Position numbers and translations under genes: made by a program
Assembly: GCF_003569915.1 (NCBI RefSeq)
Contig: NZ_KZ984440.1
Span: 1-64,000 of the forward strand
Reading direction: 5' to 3'
DNA length: 64,000 nt
Origin: Comamonas testosteroni
Lineage (GTDB): Bacteria > Pseudomonadota > Gammaproteobacteria > Burkholderiales > Burkholderiaceae_C
Notes under the pieces: model-generated
The model's database searches: none
What the model was told of the DNA's origin: nothing
What the model saw: the letters and a program-made list of their open reading frames with translations, nothing else
In this document: piece after piece, positions 4,208 to 54,850 of the stretch
How positions within the stretch are numbered: the stretch's first letter is position 1
Layout of the letters: every line of letters starts with the position of its first letter

Positions 4208-4653
4208 GCGCCATGACCACCGTATTCGTCGATACCTCGGTGCTGATTGCGGCCGAGGATGTGGCCGGTGGCGATCTCTACACCGCCGCGCTGGACTGGC
4301 TCGATGTGCTCTGGCACAGCCGCACGGGCCGCACCAGCAATCAGGCGCTGGTGGAGTTCTACGACCAGGTCACGACCGCAGCGGCCCCCATGCCCCAGGG
4401 CGACGCCCGCGCTGCCATCCGCCGCTACCAGACCTGGACGCCGTGGAAAACCGACGCCGCCACGCTGGAAACCGCCTGGGCCGTGCAAGCCCGCCATGCG
4501 CTGGACTTTGGCGACTGCCTGGCCGTGGCCTGCGCCCAGCACAGCGGTTGCAGCCATATGCTGAGCCTGCACCTGCCCCATGGCGCAGAGTTTGGCGGCG
4601 TCACCGTGGTGCACCCGCTGCAGCAAAGCGTCCCCAAGAATGTGGGGGCTTGA
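4204..4653 (+). CDS. PIN-domain toxin (VapC-like ribonuclease)
   Basis: A 149-residue PIN-fold protein, expected to be the RNA-cleaving toxin of a type II toxin-antitoxin pair. The acidic residues that bind Mg or Mn are present: Asp10 in VFVDTS, Glu51 in QALVEFY, and Asp104 in DFGDCLAVACA. Length is normal for VapC. Start ATG 4204 overlaps the antitoxin stop, and a second ATG at 4213 is possible. The partner is of ribbon-helix-helix rather than AbrB type, which is common among PIN pairs. The module lies just upstream of hisC, and hisC follows after a 57-bp gap without an evident terminator, so read-through into the his genes is possible. Confidence 0.88.
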   Translation: MSAMTTVFVDTSVLIAAEDVAGGDLYTAALDWLDVLWHSRTGRTSNQALVEFYDQVTTAAAPMPQGDARAAIRRYQTWTPWKTDAATLETAWAVQARHALDFGDCLAVACAQHSGCSHMLSLHLPHGAEFGGVTVVHPLQQSVPKNVGA

Positions 4654-47749: not shown

Positions 47750-49831
47750 TCAGTGGTCGTACTCGACGTTGGTGCTGAACGACAGATCAAAGGGGTCAGA
47801 CCAGCTCAGATTGGCAAACGAGTAGTCCGACGAGCCCGTTGAGCCAAGAACTGCCGGGAATGAGGCTTTGGCAGCGCCTGCCACCTGCGTGCTCATTGCG
47901 GTATTGACCGCAACTGGCTTGATCATGGCGGCGCCAGTGACAAAGCTGGTCTGAGCGCCAATGGTCGAGCGAATCTGCACGCTGGTTTTCTTGACAAACG
48001 GGACATCGGCTGCCGAAGTCCAGCTCACAGGGAAGTTCAGCCCGCCCGTGAAGGCTGTGCTGGAAGTCGGGGTCAGCAAGTCCTTGGTGGCCTGGCTCAG
48101 GCTTTGCCATGCATATTTGCGCAGCAGCTCAGGCTGAGGCGGCATGCTGCGTACCCGAACCGTGTAGCTGTAAGCTGGCGTGGAAGTATTGCCGTTTTGA
48201 TAGACTTGAATGGTGTAGGCACTCAGGGGGTGCAGCGTTGCCATCTCGGACGTGCTCAGTGCCGGGTTGGAGTAAGCGGTATTAGTAGTTGACCACTTGA
48301 ATTGAGACTGCTCGCTGGCGTTTTGAGCCACACCAGTCAGTTTGAAGCTGGTGCGGCAGGCATTCATCTTTCCTGGATACTTGCTGGCGACCGAGCTTGC
48401 GGTGTCCCCGGCAGCCAGCTGGGCATGAATATTCAGATATTCACAGACGCCAGAGCTGGGCTTGAGCAGCACGCCATTGCGCAGGCCAGGGCCGGTGACA
48501 ATGGCAAAGTCCGTCAGCACATTCTGGTCATCAATCACGCCGATCTGCAGCGAGATGGAGTTGATGAAGGCGCTTACGCCAGTGGATGATTTGGGTGGGT
48601 TGAGCCAGTCCCAGCGCTGGGCGGTGGCAAGCACCTTGCTCAGGATATGGCGCTGGTTGCCGATCAGGCGCCAGCCCTTGTCCGTGCTGGTCGGCTTGAC
48701 TGCAACCTGCGCAATGTTTTGCATGCCGTCGCGAAGGCCGTCGGTGCGCGTCCAGTTCAGCTTGATCCAGACCTTGTCGCTGCCCTGCACACGAATGATC
48801 TCGGGCAGACCGAAGACGGCTCCATTCATGCCTTCATCGGCAATCACCGGTGAGCCCAGGTCCATCTCTGCATTCTGTCCATTGCTCAGATACTTCGACG
48901 GCACATTGGGTAGCAGTGAGCCTGAAGCGGCATCGTCCACCACAATGTTTTTACAGGCTGCGACACTGCCTTGAAGGCGTGTGGAGCCTGTGGAGGGGCT
49001 GGCAAAGCACTGGTTCAGCGCAGTCTGCAGGGCCGAAAGATCACTGGGCGTGGGCAGTTGGGACACGGTCTGTCCGTCGATCACCACGGTGCTGGGCAGG
49101 CTGCTCTTGTCCGCAGCGGTAGGAACTGCGCCGGGAGCCAGTTGCAGCACGGCAGGAGTGCTTTGCGAGGCACCGGCGACGGAGGAGAGCTGAACGCTGC
49201 CATCGGGCAGCACATTGACCTTGATCTGATCGAGCAGTCGGTCCAGCCCGGGCGCGCCAGCGGTCAGCGGGGCCGAAATCAGGTTGGCTCCTGCGTTGCC
49301 AGTGGCGCTCATGACATCGGCCAAAGCGGTTGTGTAGGCCTGAACGGCACTGCTGACGGAGCTGCTGGTGATCTTGGATTTGAGCAGGCTGGCGTCGCTT
49401 GACATCAGCTTGCGGGGATCGTCGCCCACGACGGAGGCGATGATGGCATTGGTCAGCGAGGTGATATTGACCACCTGGGTGCCCGAGCTGGCGCTGGCAC
49501 TCATCAGCGTGGTCTGGGAGTCTGCTACGTTTCCTGTAGCGGATAGCGCAAATGGGGCGGTGGCTTTGGTCACATCACAGCTAAAAGCGCCGCTTGTTGC
49601 ATCGGTGGGGCACTTGATGCTTTGCCCACTGGCGTCCATCAGCGTAACGACGGCGTTCTGCATGGCGGCACCGGTGGCGGCCACGCCACTGACTGTCAGG
49701 GCGCTGCTGCCGCTGGGGTTGCCATTGGCGTTGCCGTTGCTGCTGGTGGAGGAAGAGTCTCCACCCCCTCCGCAACCGGCAAGCACGCTGATTGTTGTAG
49801 CCACTGCCAGAGCGACTTTGGTTTTGCGCAT
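47750..49831 (-). CDS. Large lipoprotein of unknown function
   Basis: A 693-residue predicted lipoprotein. The signal peptide ends in the lipobox LAGC with Cys20, followed by GGGGDSSS and a Ser/Asn/Gly linker to about residue 45. Residues 45-105 (VSGVAATGAAMQNAVVTLMD, then CPTDATSGAFSC) resemble a carboxypeptidase-regulatory-like beta domain. The middle is rich in Ser/Ala/Thr. The C-terminal 350 residues look like a secreted beta-rich domain with paired Cys. I do not recognise a family for it. It is a single gene with a terminator shared with the LuxR regulator that faces it. Confidence 0.78.
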   Translation of the reverse strand: MRKTKVALAVATTISVLAGCGGGGDSSSTSSNGNANGNPSGSSALTVSGVAATGAAMQNAVVTLMDASGQSIKCPTDATSGAFSCDVTKATAPFALSATGNVADSQTTLMSASASSGTQVVNITSLTNAIIASVVGDDPRKLMSSDASLLKSKITSSSVSSAVQAYTTALADVMSATGNAGANLISAPLTAGAPGLDRLLDQIKVNVLPDGSVQLSSVAGASQSTPAVLQLAPGAVPTAADKSSLPSTVVIDGQTVSQLPTPSDLSALQTALNQCFASPSTGSTRLQGSVAACKNIVVDDAASGSLLPNVPSKYLSNGQNAEMDLGSPVIADEGMNGAVFGLPEIIRVQGSDKVWIKLNWTRTDGLRDGMQNIAQVAVKPTSTDKGWRLIGNQRHILSKVLATAQRWDWLNPPKSSTGVSAFINSISLQIGVIDDQNVLTDFAIVTGPGLRNGVLLKPSSGVCEYLNIHAQLAAGDTASSVASKYPGKMNACRTSFKLTGVAQNASEQSQFKWSTTNTAYSNPALSTSEMATLHPLSAYTIQVYQNGNTSTPAYSYTVRVRSMPPQPELLRKYAWQSLSQATKDLLTPTSSTAFTGGLNFPVSWTSAADVPFVKKTSVQIRSTIGAQTSFVTGAAMIKPVAVNTAMSTQVAGAAKASFPAVLGSTGSSDYSFANLSWSDPFDLSFSTNVEYDH

Positions 49832-50908: not shown

Positions 50909-51772
50909 TCAGGCCTTGTCCGGCCACTGCCCGCCTGTGCAGCGTTCGATGCCCGCCAGGTCCTGGCGATGCTGCACCTGCACAAAACCGGCGGTCTGCA
51001 TCAGTTGCGCGACATCGGCGGCCTGATCCCAGCCATGCTCGAAGATGAGCCAGCCACCAGCCTTGAGCCGCGCCGGGGCCTGCGCAATGATGCTGCGAAT
51101 ATCTTCCAGCCCATCTGCGCCGCTGGCCAGGGCCGACAAAGGCTCATGCGTCAGAGCTGCCAGATGCGGGTCATCGGCACGGATATAGGGTGGGTTGCTG
51201 ACGATCAGGTCCACGGCGGGCAGCTCGCTCAAAGGCTCCAGCCAGCTGCCATGGGCAAACTGCACGGGCAGATTCAAGGCGCGGGCATTGCTTTGGGCCA
51301 CGGCCAGTGCATCAGCGCTGGCGTCCACAGCTATCACCTTTGCAGCAGGGCGCTGGTTTTGCAGGGCCAGCGCAATCGCGCCGCTGCCTGTGCCCAGGTC
51401 CACAACGCGAATAGCGACTCCTTCAGGGATCAGCTCCAGCGCCCAGTCCACCAGAGTTTCGGTATCGGGGCGCGGGTCGAGAACGCGGGCATCGACGGCC
51501 AGATTGAGGCCGTAGAACTCCTTGTGGCCCGTCAGATAAGCCACGGGCGCGCCTTGCTGGCGCTGGGTGCAGAGGTCGTGCCAGCGCTGCAACTGCTCGG
51601 CACTCAGAATATCAGTGTCATGGGTGATCAGCCAGGCTCTTGCATGGGCTGGCTGCTGCATAAGTGATAGCAACAGCATTTGCGCATCCAAGCGCGCCAT
51701 GCCTTGCTGGGCAGCCTGTTGCAGGGCCTGGGCAACGGTGGCGGTGGATGAATGGGAAACAGGTTCAGTCAT
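50909..51772 (-). CDS. prmC: Release factor glutamine methyltransferase
   Basis: A 287-residue S-adenosylmethionine enzyme that methylates the Gln of the GGQ motif in release factors RF1 and RF2. The catalytic NPPY is in IVSNPPYIR, and the cofactor loop is VVDLGTGSGAIALAL. The helical N-terminal domain (about residues 1-90) binds the release factor. ATG 51772 is chosen as the family-length start. Its substrate gene prfA lies upstream, but another gene lies between them. Confidence 0.95.
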   Translation of the reverse strand: MTEPVSHSSTATVAQALQQAAQQGMARLDAQMLLLSLMQQPAHARAWLITHDTDILSAEQLQRWHDLCTQRQQGAPVAYLTGHKEFYGLNLAVDARVLDPRPDTETLVDWALELIPEGVAIRVVDLGTGSGAIALALQNQRPAAKVIAVDASADALAVAQSNARALNLPVQFAHGSWLEPLSELPAVDLIVSNPPYIRADDPHLAALTHEPLSALASGADGLEDIRSIIAQAPARLKAGGWLIFEHGWDQAADVAQLMQTAGFVQVQHRQDLAGIERCTGGQWPDKA

Positions 51773-51783
51773 GGGTTTGGGAT

Positions 51784-53769
51784 TCAACGCCCCGGCGCAG
51801 AGATAAACGGGCGCGACTGCAGGATGATGACCTGATCGCCTTGCACGGCCCATTCGATGTCCTGGTCCTTGCTGCCAAAGCGCTGCTTGATGCCAGCACC
51901 AGCGCGGGCCAGTCGCTGCACCAGCGCATCGCTGAGCACGGCGCGGCCAGCGGCTACGGAGACTTCGCGCACGCCGCCCTTGCTGTCTAGCTGCAGGGCC
52001 ACATCGTCGTCGGAGCGGTTGAGCACCTGCACGGCCTTGCTGCGGCTGTTGTAGAGAATTTGCTCTGCGACTCGCTTGCCTTCCACCACGCGGATGCCAA
52101 TGCCGCGCTTGGCCGCGATATAGGTGGCGTAGCGGCGGTTGGCGTCAAACGGGTCGCGCGTGATCATCACGCCCGAGGCGGTGGAGTCCACGGCTTTTTG
52201 TACAAAGACGGACATGACGACCTGCTGGTCATCAATGCCCGCAGCCTGGCGCGCTTCCCAGGCCTCGAAGTTATAGACCGAGGCCCAGACCTTGCGCACG
52301 GCGGCTGCCAGATCGGCACTGCTGCGCACATTGGGCACGGTGGTGTACAGGCCCGCGCCGCTGAAGTTGGGCAGGTCTTCGGAGCTGGACGAGCTGCGCA
52401 CAAACACGCCCTGACTGCCGAGCTGGCTGGCCCAGCGCTGGGCCCAGGCGTCTGCGGCGGCCTGATTCACCGGCCATTGTTCGATTTCGGCCTGTAGTCC
52501 GGACAGTGCTTGCCTGCGGACTCCTGAATCTGTAGCAAACCCGGGCAACTGGCGCATGCGGGCGACCCGCTCCGCAAGGCCGTTGCCGCGCATGAAGTCG
52601 GCATAGGCGGCGAACGGAATGCAAAAACCGTCGGGCACGATGACATCGGCCAGACGGGCCGATTGAATCTCGCCCAGATTGGCGGCCTTGGCCCCGCAGC
52701 GCTTGCGGTCTGCGCCGCGCAGGCTGGCCAGCGACACCAGATCGGCGCGGGCAAGGTCTGGCTTGATCAGCACGCGGTTGCCGTTGGCGGGTTTACGCTG
52801 GGCTTTTTGTTCAGCGGCCTGGCGCTCGGCGTCGGTGGCGGCACGCAGTTGCACACCGCTGGCCTGCACCTGCATCTGCACCCACTGGCCGTTGAAGGCG
52901 GCGTACTGCTCGGCCGCTTTTTGCACATAGGCATTGGGCACGCCCCAGCCGCGCGCCAGCAGATTGACGTGGGAGAGCACGGTGGAGGGGCGCTCCGTCA
53001 GCACACCGGCCACGGGCGGCAGGCTGATGGGTACTTCGCGCAGCAGCACAATGTCCTGTGGCTTGAGGTCATTGACGGCATCGACGGAATTCACAATGCG
53101 CAGCCGCCCCACAGCCTGCCCCAGATTGAGCGGCAAAAAGGTCTGCGAGCCCAGCAACTGCGCCTGCGTGACAGCATCAATGCCCGCTGCCCCTGCAACC
53201 GCTTCTTGTGCTGTGGAGTTGGCTTTGAAGCGCACCGGCGCAAAGAATCCGCTCTTGAGCGCATTGGCCGTGGTCTGCAGCAGCTCGGGCGTGATGCGGT
53301 CACCTTCCCAGAACTCATAGCTATAGTCCTTGAGCGTGGGCTGCCAGCTCACGGTGCCAAGGATAAAGCGCCGGTCCGGCTCGCGGTAATTGCGGTTCAG
53401 AGCCTGCTTGCCGCCGCGCAGCAGGCCTTTGGCTTGCAGAAAGTCTTCATGAAACACATAGCGCGGCGTGTTGATGAAGTAGAGGCGAGCGGGTTTGGCC
53501 TGGCGGTCAATCGCAAACAGCACATGCGGCATGGCGCTGGCGCTGCCGGGGTCATAGACGCGGGCCAGCCGGTCAAAGTCCGCACGGCTGCCCAGAGCGG
53601 CCAGACTGGCAGGCGCAACGCGGTTGCCGCTGGAGTCGACGGGGCTGCCCGCACCCGAGTCATATGCCGATGGTTTGCGCACCATCTGCGCTTGGGCGGG
53701 GCTGATGGATGCTGCCAGCAAGGCGCTGGAAAGCAAGATGGATCCCAGTGGTGGCAGCAGTTTTTTCAT
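51784..53769 (-). CDS. Exported PEP-synthase-type protein: phosphohistidine domain then ATP-grasp (GWD-like order)
   Basis: A 661-residue protein. Residues 1-27 are a clear signal peptide ending AQA, so export is predicted. The next 200 residues are unassigned. At 250-281 stands a phosphohistidine swivel motif with His267 (GVLTERPSTVLSHVNLLARG). From about 358 to 655 comes the ATP-grasp domain of the pyruvate phosphate dikinase N-terminal type: CGAKAANLGEI, VRSSSSSEDLPNFSGAGLY, a KVWAS-type helix, SGVMITRDPF and DIEWAVQGDQVIILQSRPF. The PEP/pyruvate TIM barrel is missing. In PEP synthase the ATP domain comes first. His first is the order of plant alpha-glucan water dikinase, whose LSHV motif this resembles. 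ATG 53769 lies 1 bp past prfA. Substrate and phosphate source are unknown. Confidence 0.85.
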   Translation of the reverse strand: MKKLLPPLGSILLSSALLAASISPAQAQMVRKPSAYDSGAGSPVDSSGNRVAPASLAALGSRADFDRLARVYDPGSASAMPHVLFAIDRQAKPARLYFINTPRYVFHEDFLQAKGLLRGGKQALNRNYREPDRRFILGTVSWQPTLKDYSYEFWEGDRITPELLQTTANALKSGFFAPVRFKANSTAQEAVAGAAGIDAVTQAQLLGSQTFLPLNLGQAVGRLRIVNSVDAVNDLKPQDIVLLREVPISLPPVAGVLTERPSTVLSHVNLLARGWGVPNAYVQKAAEQYAAFNGQWVQMQVQASGVQLRAATDAERQAAEQKAQRKPANGNRVLIKPDLARADLVSLASLRGADRKRCGAKAANLGEIQSARLADVIVPDGFCIPFAAYADFMRGNGLAERVARMRQLPGFATDSGVRRQALSGLQAEIEQWPVNQAAADAWAQRWASQLGSQGVFVRSSSSSEDLPNFSGAGLYTTVPNVRSSADLAAAVRKVWASVYNFEAWEARQAAGIDDQQVVMSVFVQKAVDSTASGVMITRDPFDANRRYATYIAAKRGIGIRVVEGKRVAEQILYNSRSKAVQVLNRSDDDVALQLDSKGGVREVSVAAGRAVLSDALVQRLARAGAGIKQRFGSKDQDIEWAVQGDQVIILQSRPFISAPGR

Positions 53770-53770
53770 A

Positions 53771-54850
53771 TCAATTGGTTTCGAGTTCGGCCAGCAATTC
53801 TGCTTCACGCGCGTGCTTCAGGGCTTCGATCACATCGCCCATATCGCCTTCCATCACCGCCAGCAGCTTGTAGAGCGTGAGGTTGATGCGGTGGTCGGTC
53901 AGTCGCCCCTGCGGGAAGTTATAGGTGCGGATGCGGTCGCTGCGGTCACCAGAGCCTATCAAACCCTTGCGCAGAGCGGCTTCCTTGGCTGCGCGCTCGC
54001 TGCGCTCTTTTTCCTGAATGCGGGCCTGCAGCACCTGCAGCGCCTTGGCCTTGTTGCTGTGCTGACTGCGGCCATCCTGGCATTCGGCCACGATGCCCGT
54101 GGGCAAGTGCACCACGCGCACGGCGGAGTCGGTCTTGTTGATGTGCTGACCGCCAGCGCCTGATGCGCGGAAGGTGTCGATGCGCAGGTCTGCCGGGTTG
54201 AGCGTGATGGCTTCGGCCTCATCGGGCTCGGGCATCACGGCCACGGTGCAGGCGCTGGTGTGGATGCGGCCTTGGGTCTCGGTCGCGGGCACGCGCTGCA
54301 CGCGGTGGCCGCCCGATTCAAAGCGCAGCGCGCCATAGGTGTTGTCGCCTTCAATGCGCAGCACCACTTCCTTGTAGCCGCCAATCTCGTTCTCGTTGGA
54401 GCTCATGACCTCGACCTTCCAGCCCACGTTCGCGGCATAGCGCGTGTACATGCGGGCCAGATCGCCGGCAAACAGCGCCGACTCATCGCCGCCCGTACCA
54501 GCGCGGATTTCCACAAATGCTGGGCGTGCGTCGTCGGGGTCCTTGGGCAGCAGCATGCGCTGCAGCTCGGCTTCGAGCTTGATCAGCTCTTCTTCGCCGT
54601 TGCTGATTTCTTCCTGCGCCATCTCGGCCATGTCAGGGTCGTCCAGCATTTCACGCGCGGCCGCAATGTCGGCTTCGGTCTGCTGGTAACGGCTGTAGCG
54701 GCTGGCAACAGCCGTCACATCGGCGTGCTCGCGCGAGATGTTCCGGTACTGCTTCATGTCCGCCATGATGTCTTCGCGCGAGAGCAGAAAGTCCAGCTCC
54801 TGCAGGCGTTGGGCATAGCGTTCGAGCTGGGTGCGCAAAAAGTCTTGCAT
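53771..54850 (-). CDS. prfA: Peptide chain release factor 1
   Basis: A 359-residue class I release factor that reads UAA and UAG. The GGQ motif that triggers peptide release is in [15 protein letters not shown]. The stop-codon recognition loop of the PxT type should lie in [14 protein letters not shown], which has PAT. The N-terminus is coiled and acidic. ATG 54850. It lies between hemA and the exported dikinase-like gene, and its TGA is 1 bp from the start of the latter. Confidence 0.97.

Follow-up and report, generated by a model that had tools for sequence, protein, structure and literature searches.

A predicted exported phosphohistidine dikinase encoded between prfA and prmC in Comamonas testosteroni

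Enzymes that run on ATP are normally cytoplasmic. The window analysed here, a 64,000-nucleotide stretch of Comamonas testosteroni DNA, holds a gene that combines a dikinase active site with an export signal, a combination conserved in two phyla, and thus raises the question of what such an enzyme might phosphorylate and with which ATP. The presence of an exported-type dikinase gene at 51784-53769 was confirmed, and its parts and immediate neighbours are as follows.

51784..53769, (-) strand: whole gene, His-before-ATP dikinase with predicted export; 661 aa plus stop, from ATG
53689..53769, (-) strand: predicted signal peptide, residues 1-27, called from sequence; character kept among homologues
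53155..53589, (-) strand: N-terminal domain, residues ~61-205; nothing in Pfam above cut-off
52810..53154, (-) strand: putative phosphohistidine swivel domain, residues ~206-320, from profile, Pfam and fold search
52969..52971, (-) strand: codon of His267, predicted phosphate-carrying His (LSH267VNLLARG); invariant in 42/42, aligned on the PpsA His
51805..52701, (-) strand: ATP-grasp domain, residues 357-655 (K361, R458, E639, Q651, R653), from PPDK_N
53771..54850, (-) strand: prfA, upstream neighbour, 1 bp from the dikinase gene
50909..51772, (-) strand: prmC, downstream neighbour, 11 bp away, likely start at 51772

Domain layout and conservation of the active site

The first-pass annotation had described a signal peptide, His267 within LSHVNLLARG and a pyruvate phosphate dikinase-type ATP-grasp domain without a PEP-binding barrel, and had suggested a profile search of the protein; Pfam, profiles and homologues bore out all three features. 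Pfam placed PPDK_N on residues 357-655 of the whole protein (E = 5.7e-53), and since this match ends six residues before the C-terminus there is no PEP barrel, nor did the scan find one elsewhere in the protein. The sole other PPDK_N match in the genome is an 801-aa PEP synthase-like frame (PpsA) on another contig. By sequence, the closest PDB chains were rifampin phosphotransferase (RPH; 5hv1, E = 3.5e-23, over the ATP-grasp domain) and PEP synthases, and over that domain a fold search likewise gave rifampin phosphotransferases and PEP synthases as the closest solved chains. NCBIfam returned 14 matches at E ≤ 1, each confined to the ATP-grasp part.

The swivel stayed below cut-off in the whole-protein Pfam scan (PEP-utilizers E = 0.053, GWD1_pHisD E = 0.072). 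Trimming to residues 47-333 gave E = 0.020 for GWD1_pHisD and 0.029 for PEP-utilizers, and the 27-bit cut-off of GWD1_pHisD was reached neither by the whole protein (13.1 bits) nor by the trimmed one (14.9 bits). When 13 family members were scanned, PEP-utilizers matched 12 at E ≤ 1 (best 0.0018) and GWD1_pHisD matched four (best 0.02). A profile of residues 205-325 aligned on the swivel of the genome's own PpsA at E = 1.7e-4 (probability 49%, score 35.9, with a template of two sequences only) and set His267 on the catalytic His of GGRTCHAA; the best of 60 profile controls, one reversed and 59 column-shuffled, reached E = 0.077 and a score of 19.2. Foldseek with a second structure model, of residues 47-333 (pLDDT 78, pTM 0.69), gave weak matches (best E = 2.3e-3, none <1e-3) with aconitase X, AF0055, PPDK and MccF at the top and Enzyme I in 14th place, all of which we take to share the swivelling beta-beta-alpha fold. 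Because the 13-member Pfam scan, the PpsA profile match and Foldseek agree, we take the swivel as real: profile and conservation argue for an invariant-His swivel domain, with weaker support from the fold search. In the full-length model (pLDDT 70, pTM 0.56) the His loop, residues 263-274, has pLDDT <50 and is too loose to judge whether His267 can reach ATP. Together, a PPDK_N domain that has the Lys, Arg, Glu and Gln of the ATP site and the predicted swivel His place the protein in the PPDK-type dikinase superfamily.

Residues ~61-205 matched no Pfam family over cut-off in either the whole or the trimmed scan, and the N-terminal plus swivel part had 0 PDB sequence matches. The N-terminal domain nevertheless carries many residues that are invariant across the 13 members. 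It is probably the acceptor-binding part, and would then best be called an acceptor domain of a kind so far undescribed.

Conservation was counted over 42 chosen homologues (17 Burkholderiales, 21 acidobacterial, two long-form proteobacterial and two from Streptomyces plasmids), near-identical loci having been removed beforehand. Outside this set lie L034, which a contig end cuts off before the His region, L047 and L054, which miss most of the ATP-grasp domain, and L157-L163, among which L159 and L160 retain the motifs. Invariant in all 42 rows are S266, H267, L271, P278 and N279 of the swivel part, as well as K361, G366, R458, E464, D465, L466, D637, E639, Q651 and R653. By motif, K361 and R458 likely correspond to Lys22 and Arg117 of RPH-Lm, which are reported to be required for rifampin resistance (PMC4844700). 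Glu297 of that enzyme is described as dispensable (PMC4844700), so that the invariance of E639, if it is the counterpart, is a weaker argument. In five pairs from the genus sample the mature part had dN/dS values of 0.10-0.35, with one pair reaching 0.53 for the swivel part, ratios that are rough because dS is high; in every pair, dN of the signal region exceeded that of the mature part. The mature part is thus under purifying selection in these pairs. Since no row differs at His267 or at the Lys, Arg, Glu and Gln of the ATP site, the degenerate binder that had been offered as one option at first annotation is unlikely. A homologue in G517 (L054:3616-4656 and 4425-4532) has lost the ATP-grasp body, keeps the N-terminal and His parts and shows a frame change; it is apparently a decayed copy.

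Export signal, distribution and gene neighbourhoods

The N-terminus is signal-like, reading MKKLLPPLGSILLSSALLAASISPAQA followed by Q, and we infer Sec-type cleavage after AQA and before this Q, at residue 27. Homologues were scored with a hydrophobicity-based rule (a hydrophobic segment of ≥1.5 preceded by K or R), their starts being chosen with a preference for hydrophobic segments. The rule was passed by 35 of the 38 Burkholderiales and acidobacterial homologues (33 reach 2.0; lowest score 1.49), compared with 4 of 51 cytosolic controls (prfA, prmC and hemA) given the same freedom of start. Unrelated neighbouring ORFs, also with free choice of start, passed in 79 of 189 cases, truly exported proteins being among them. 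All 38 homologues passed a small-x-small test, which is loose. The sequence of the segment drifts among homologues while its character stays, and in a relative from another family of the order (L160:5404-7443) the leader ends in a lipobox, LLSAC, making it a probable lipoprotein. The two Streptomyces relatives score 1.33, lack the segment and look cytosolic. The earlier claim of export therefore stands as a prediction from sequence, with an apparent Sec export signal conserved among the orthologues.

All genome counts in the samples searched include the centre genomes. The gene was found in 17 of 61 genomes of a genus and order sample at E ≤ 1e-40, all within the genus; in 10 of 250 of the family at 1e-80, one being a broken copy; in 3 of 250 of the order at 1e-60; and in 3 of 398 of the phylum at 1e-60, namely the own genome and two with a distant long form. 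In the phylum of the acidobacterial genome G690 there were 19 of 199 genomes at 1e-60, and the long form occurred in 19 of 78 genomes of the order of G218, all from one genus. Plasmid records matched in 155 cases, two of them over 80% of the protein, both from Streptomyces. Carriage as phage cargo was rejected, as the seven matching phage records all cover the ATP-grasp half and none reaches 80% of the protein; a defence system was likewise rejected, with no PADLOC match, and a viral fold library gave nothing under E 0.001. In the tree it is not certain that the Burkholderiales rows form one clade, nor that the acidobacterial ones do (two changes each); the branches of the long form and of Streptomyces, at 3.96 and 4.19, are so long that their placement is unsure.

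That the gene splits the prfA-prmC pair, as first annotated, proved real. We surveyed 41 genomes of the genus, of which 11 gave no locus; at the remaining 30 loci, the dikinase gene follows prfA in 13, prmC directly follows prfA in 15 (gap 1-192 nt), and neither holds in two. Among the 15 members with adjoining prfA and prmC, the gene is absent from the 13 that were searched (G893 and G894 lay outside that search). The prfA-gene-prmC order recurs in two further genera of the family (L057 and L058), and ten loci of other genera (L029, L030, L048-L053, L159 and L160; 4-17 kb each) contain no prfA or prmC. The placement is limited to Comamonas and some near relatives; a functional link to prfA-prmC was rejected on the basis of the ten other-genera loci, and the site looks like a lineage accident that offers no functional clue. 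The Comamonas neighbours hemA, prfA and prmC carry no envelope information. In several Comamonas relatives an additional ~0.6 kb separates the dikinase gene from the prmC match (L021:7945-8514, L023:7969-8608, L027:7912-8504); the window lacks it. A little downstream in the window, a 693-residue probable lipoprotein with an LAGCGGGG start is encoded at 47750-49831 on the (-) strand.

Neighbours in other lineages are of different kinds. Of 18 acidobacterial stretches, nine have near the gene a waaA-like Kdo transferase, efp and a GT28/EryCIII-like glycosyltransferase, domains having been scanned in L104 as their one representative; in another acidobacterial group the gene is at or near a PLP decarboxylase (scanned in L033). 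The long proteobacterial form is directly followed, in 5 of 5 stretches, by a gene whose product has a hydrophobic leader and contains the motifs SxxK, SSN and KSG, which we take to be of the beta-lactamase/DD-peptidase type; the two genes overlap by 4 bp in four of the five. Pfam Beta-lactamase2 was just over cut-off in one of the two partners scanned and just under in the other. The units are:

L161:4431-8653, L162:4056-8275, L056:2876-7086, L055:6121-10482, L163:3796-8306: two-gene unit, long dikinase plus serine DD-peptidase-like protein

On the Streptomyces plasmids (L073:2535-7362 and L074:2541-7221) the gene has an ATP-grasp protein on one side and an MFS transporter on the other, a cassette like a small biosynthetic unit and pointing to small-molecule work. 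Neighbours thus vary between lineages, and each of the two envelope links comes from one lineage.

A proposed reaction outside the cytoplasm and the alternatives

Our preferred reading, to which we assign a probability of about 0.5, is that the protein is an exported phosphohistidine dikinase, putative in its catalysis, direction, location and acceptor. In RPH and GWD, the beta-phosphate of ATP is reported to pass to His and the gamma-phosphate to water, after which His phosphorylates the acceptor (PMC4844700, PMC7569903). Here the C-terminal ATP-grasp domain would bind Mg-ATP, and His267 of the swivel would take the beta-phosphate while the gamma-phosphate leaves as Pi; the swivel would then swing to the N-terminal domain and hand the phosphate to an acceptor bound there (ATP + acceptor + H2O -> AMP + acceptor-P + Pi). 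Low-micromolar ATP outside the cytoplasm would fuel the dikinase, whose acceptor would most likely be part of the cell envelope, such as peptidoglycan, LPS or another surface glycan. The case for an envelope acceptor is circumstantial, drawn from the DD-peptidase-like partner in one group and from waaA and the glycosyltransferase in another.

The first-pass annotation had considered export odd, the periplasm not being known to hold ATP. That was too strong: with ATP supplied outside, the E. coli periplasm holds a steady 24 ± 3 µM per 10^10 bacteria according to a review (PMC7432876), although the same review puts the ATP that growing bacteria release at low nanomolar in one study, by a route that is unknown. 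The related dikinase RPH-Lm has a reported ATP Km of 8.4 µM (PMC4844700), so that an exported dikinase is plausible if a pool like that of E. coli exists in Comamonas. Counted against it are the scarcity of periplasmic ATP, the unlike neighbours between lineages and the two cytosolic-looking Streptomyces relatives. The wider proposition, that this is a widespread new family of extracytoplasmic phosphohistidine dikinases phosphorylating an envelope component with periplasmic ATP, we put forward only tentatively.

Phosphate bound to the histidine might instead go to water. An exported ATP scavenger of this kind would turn ATP into AMP and 2 Pi for nucleotide or phosphate salvage, with a regulatory N-terminal domain; Arg117 and Thr136 variants of RPH-Lm are described as making no product while retaining ATP pyrophosphatase activity (PMC4844700), and breakdown of periplasmic ATP is documented (PMC7432876). 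Yet the many invariant residues of the N-terminal domain exceed the needs of a plain hydrolase, and no nucleotide or phosphate salvage gene appeared among those neighbours that were scanned with Pfam (part of the total), so this reading seems unlikely. Nor need the phosphate be kept if it activates a small molecule for condensation, as in the ligase-type dikinases PigC and RedH. Their NCBIfam models match the ATP-grasp part (E = 2.1e-37 and 3.7e-34), and the Streptomyces relatives adjoin an ATP-grasp protein and an MFS transporter; but the match is unspecific, because PEP synthase and RPH models fit the same region better, and no recurring biosynthetic partner was found across the exported lineages, which leaves a ligase-type role distinctly unlikely.

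The location itself could be misread. If the signal-like N-terminus went unused, the protein would be an ordinary cytoplasmic small-molecule dikinase where ATP is plentiful, as the Streptomyces relatives without a signal segment would suggest, and the picking of homologue starts did favour hydrophobic segments. The excess over cytosolic controls, a segment that drifts but keeps its character and the lipobox that replaces it in L160 make this improbable. The His-then-ATP order would fit a genuine bacterial alpha-glucan water dikinase whose substrate is exported or environmental alpha-glucan, and in the trimmed window protein GWD1_pHisD ranks slightly above PEP-utilizers, both matches being weak; against it, PEP-utilizers matched more of the 13 members and matched them better, Pfam scans showed no starch-binding module, and no glucan gene was seen among the neighbours scanned with Pfam (again part of them all). 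We regard it as highly improbable. A non-catalytic ATP-binding sensor or binder would, we infer, account for export without much ATP, but its chances are slighter still, since none of the 42 rows departs from His267 or the ATP-site residues.

If the wider proposition of such a family held, ATP-driven covalent modification outside the inner membrane would be ordinary in parts of Comamonadaceae and Acidobacteriota, a suggestion that is well motivated but unproven. Whether the periplasm holds ATP that enzymes can use is debated, and the family makes this testable with one enzyme and one histidine.

Comparison with known dikinases

PEP synthase and PPDK have homologous ATP-grasp and swivel domains, and the genome also has its own PpsA. 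In those enzymes, however, the order is ATP, His, barrel, whereas the window protein reverses it, has no PEP/pyruvate barrel and is predicted to be exported, and its family carries LSH[VI]N in place of their GGxT[SC]HAA-type motif. Identity with them was rejected on the order, the missing barrel and scores far below the NCBIfam cut-offs (for example, 156.7 of 598 bits). RPH and other 'small-molecule dikinases' supply the best PDB matches to the ATP-grasp domain by sequence and fold and also lack a PEP barrel, but RPH runs ATP-grasp, RIF-binding domain, His and shares no predicted export; it too was rejected as an identity, at 152.7 bits against an NCBIfam cut-off of 999 and with residues 346-655 alone matching. 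Among the phenolic dikinases HpeHI, CreHI and PpsAB, HpeI (9goj) matches the ATP-grasp domain by sequence and fold, and HpeH is reported to bear the swivel and acceptor-binding parts (PMC12167813). These systems divide the work between two polypeptides and act on phenols, whereas the window protein is one chain, predicted exported, with another acceptor domain. No paper on an exported or periplasmic GWD or PPDK was recognisable by title or start of abstract among the literature matches listed.

The plant enzymes GWD and PWD, which phosphorylate alpha-glucan at C6 or C3, place the His domain before the ATP-grasp domain, and PWD carries another starch-binding module than GWD1. For GWD1 this is a tandem CBM45 (PMC7569903). 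The 'GWD plan' first proposed for the window protein holds for the domain order only: without a starch-binding module and with the GWD1_pHisD cut-off unreached, the protein is not filed as a GWD, and no Pfam family reaches its cut-off on residues ~61-205. A 2026 review notes that plant GWD and PWD lack high-resolution structures (PMC12892837), and short bacterial proteins in the His-before-ATP order are now on offer. Like GWD1 and PWD, the window protein has a predicted phosphohistidine domain ahead of a C-terminal PPDK-type ATP-grasp domain and a weak GWD1_pHisD match. Its LSHV presumably resembles the plant GWD motif. Unlike them, it is bacterial, about half as long and predicted to be exported, and Pfam finds in it neither CBM45 nor any other starch-binding module but a different N-terminal domain in front of the swivel.
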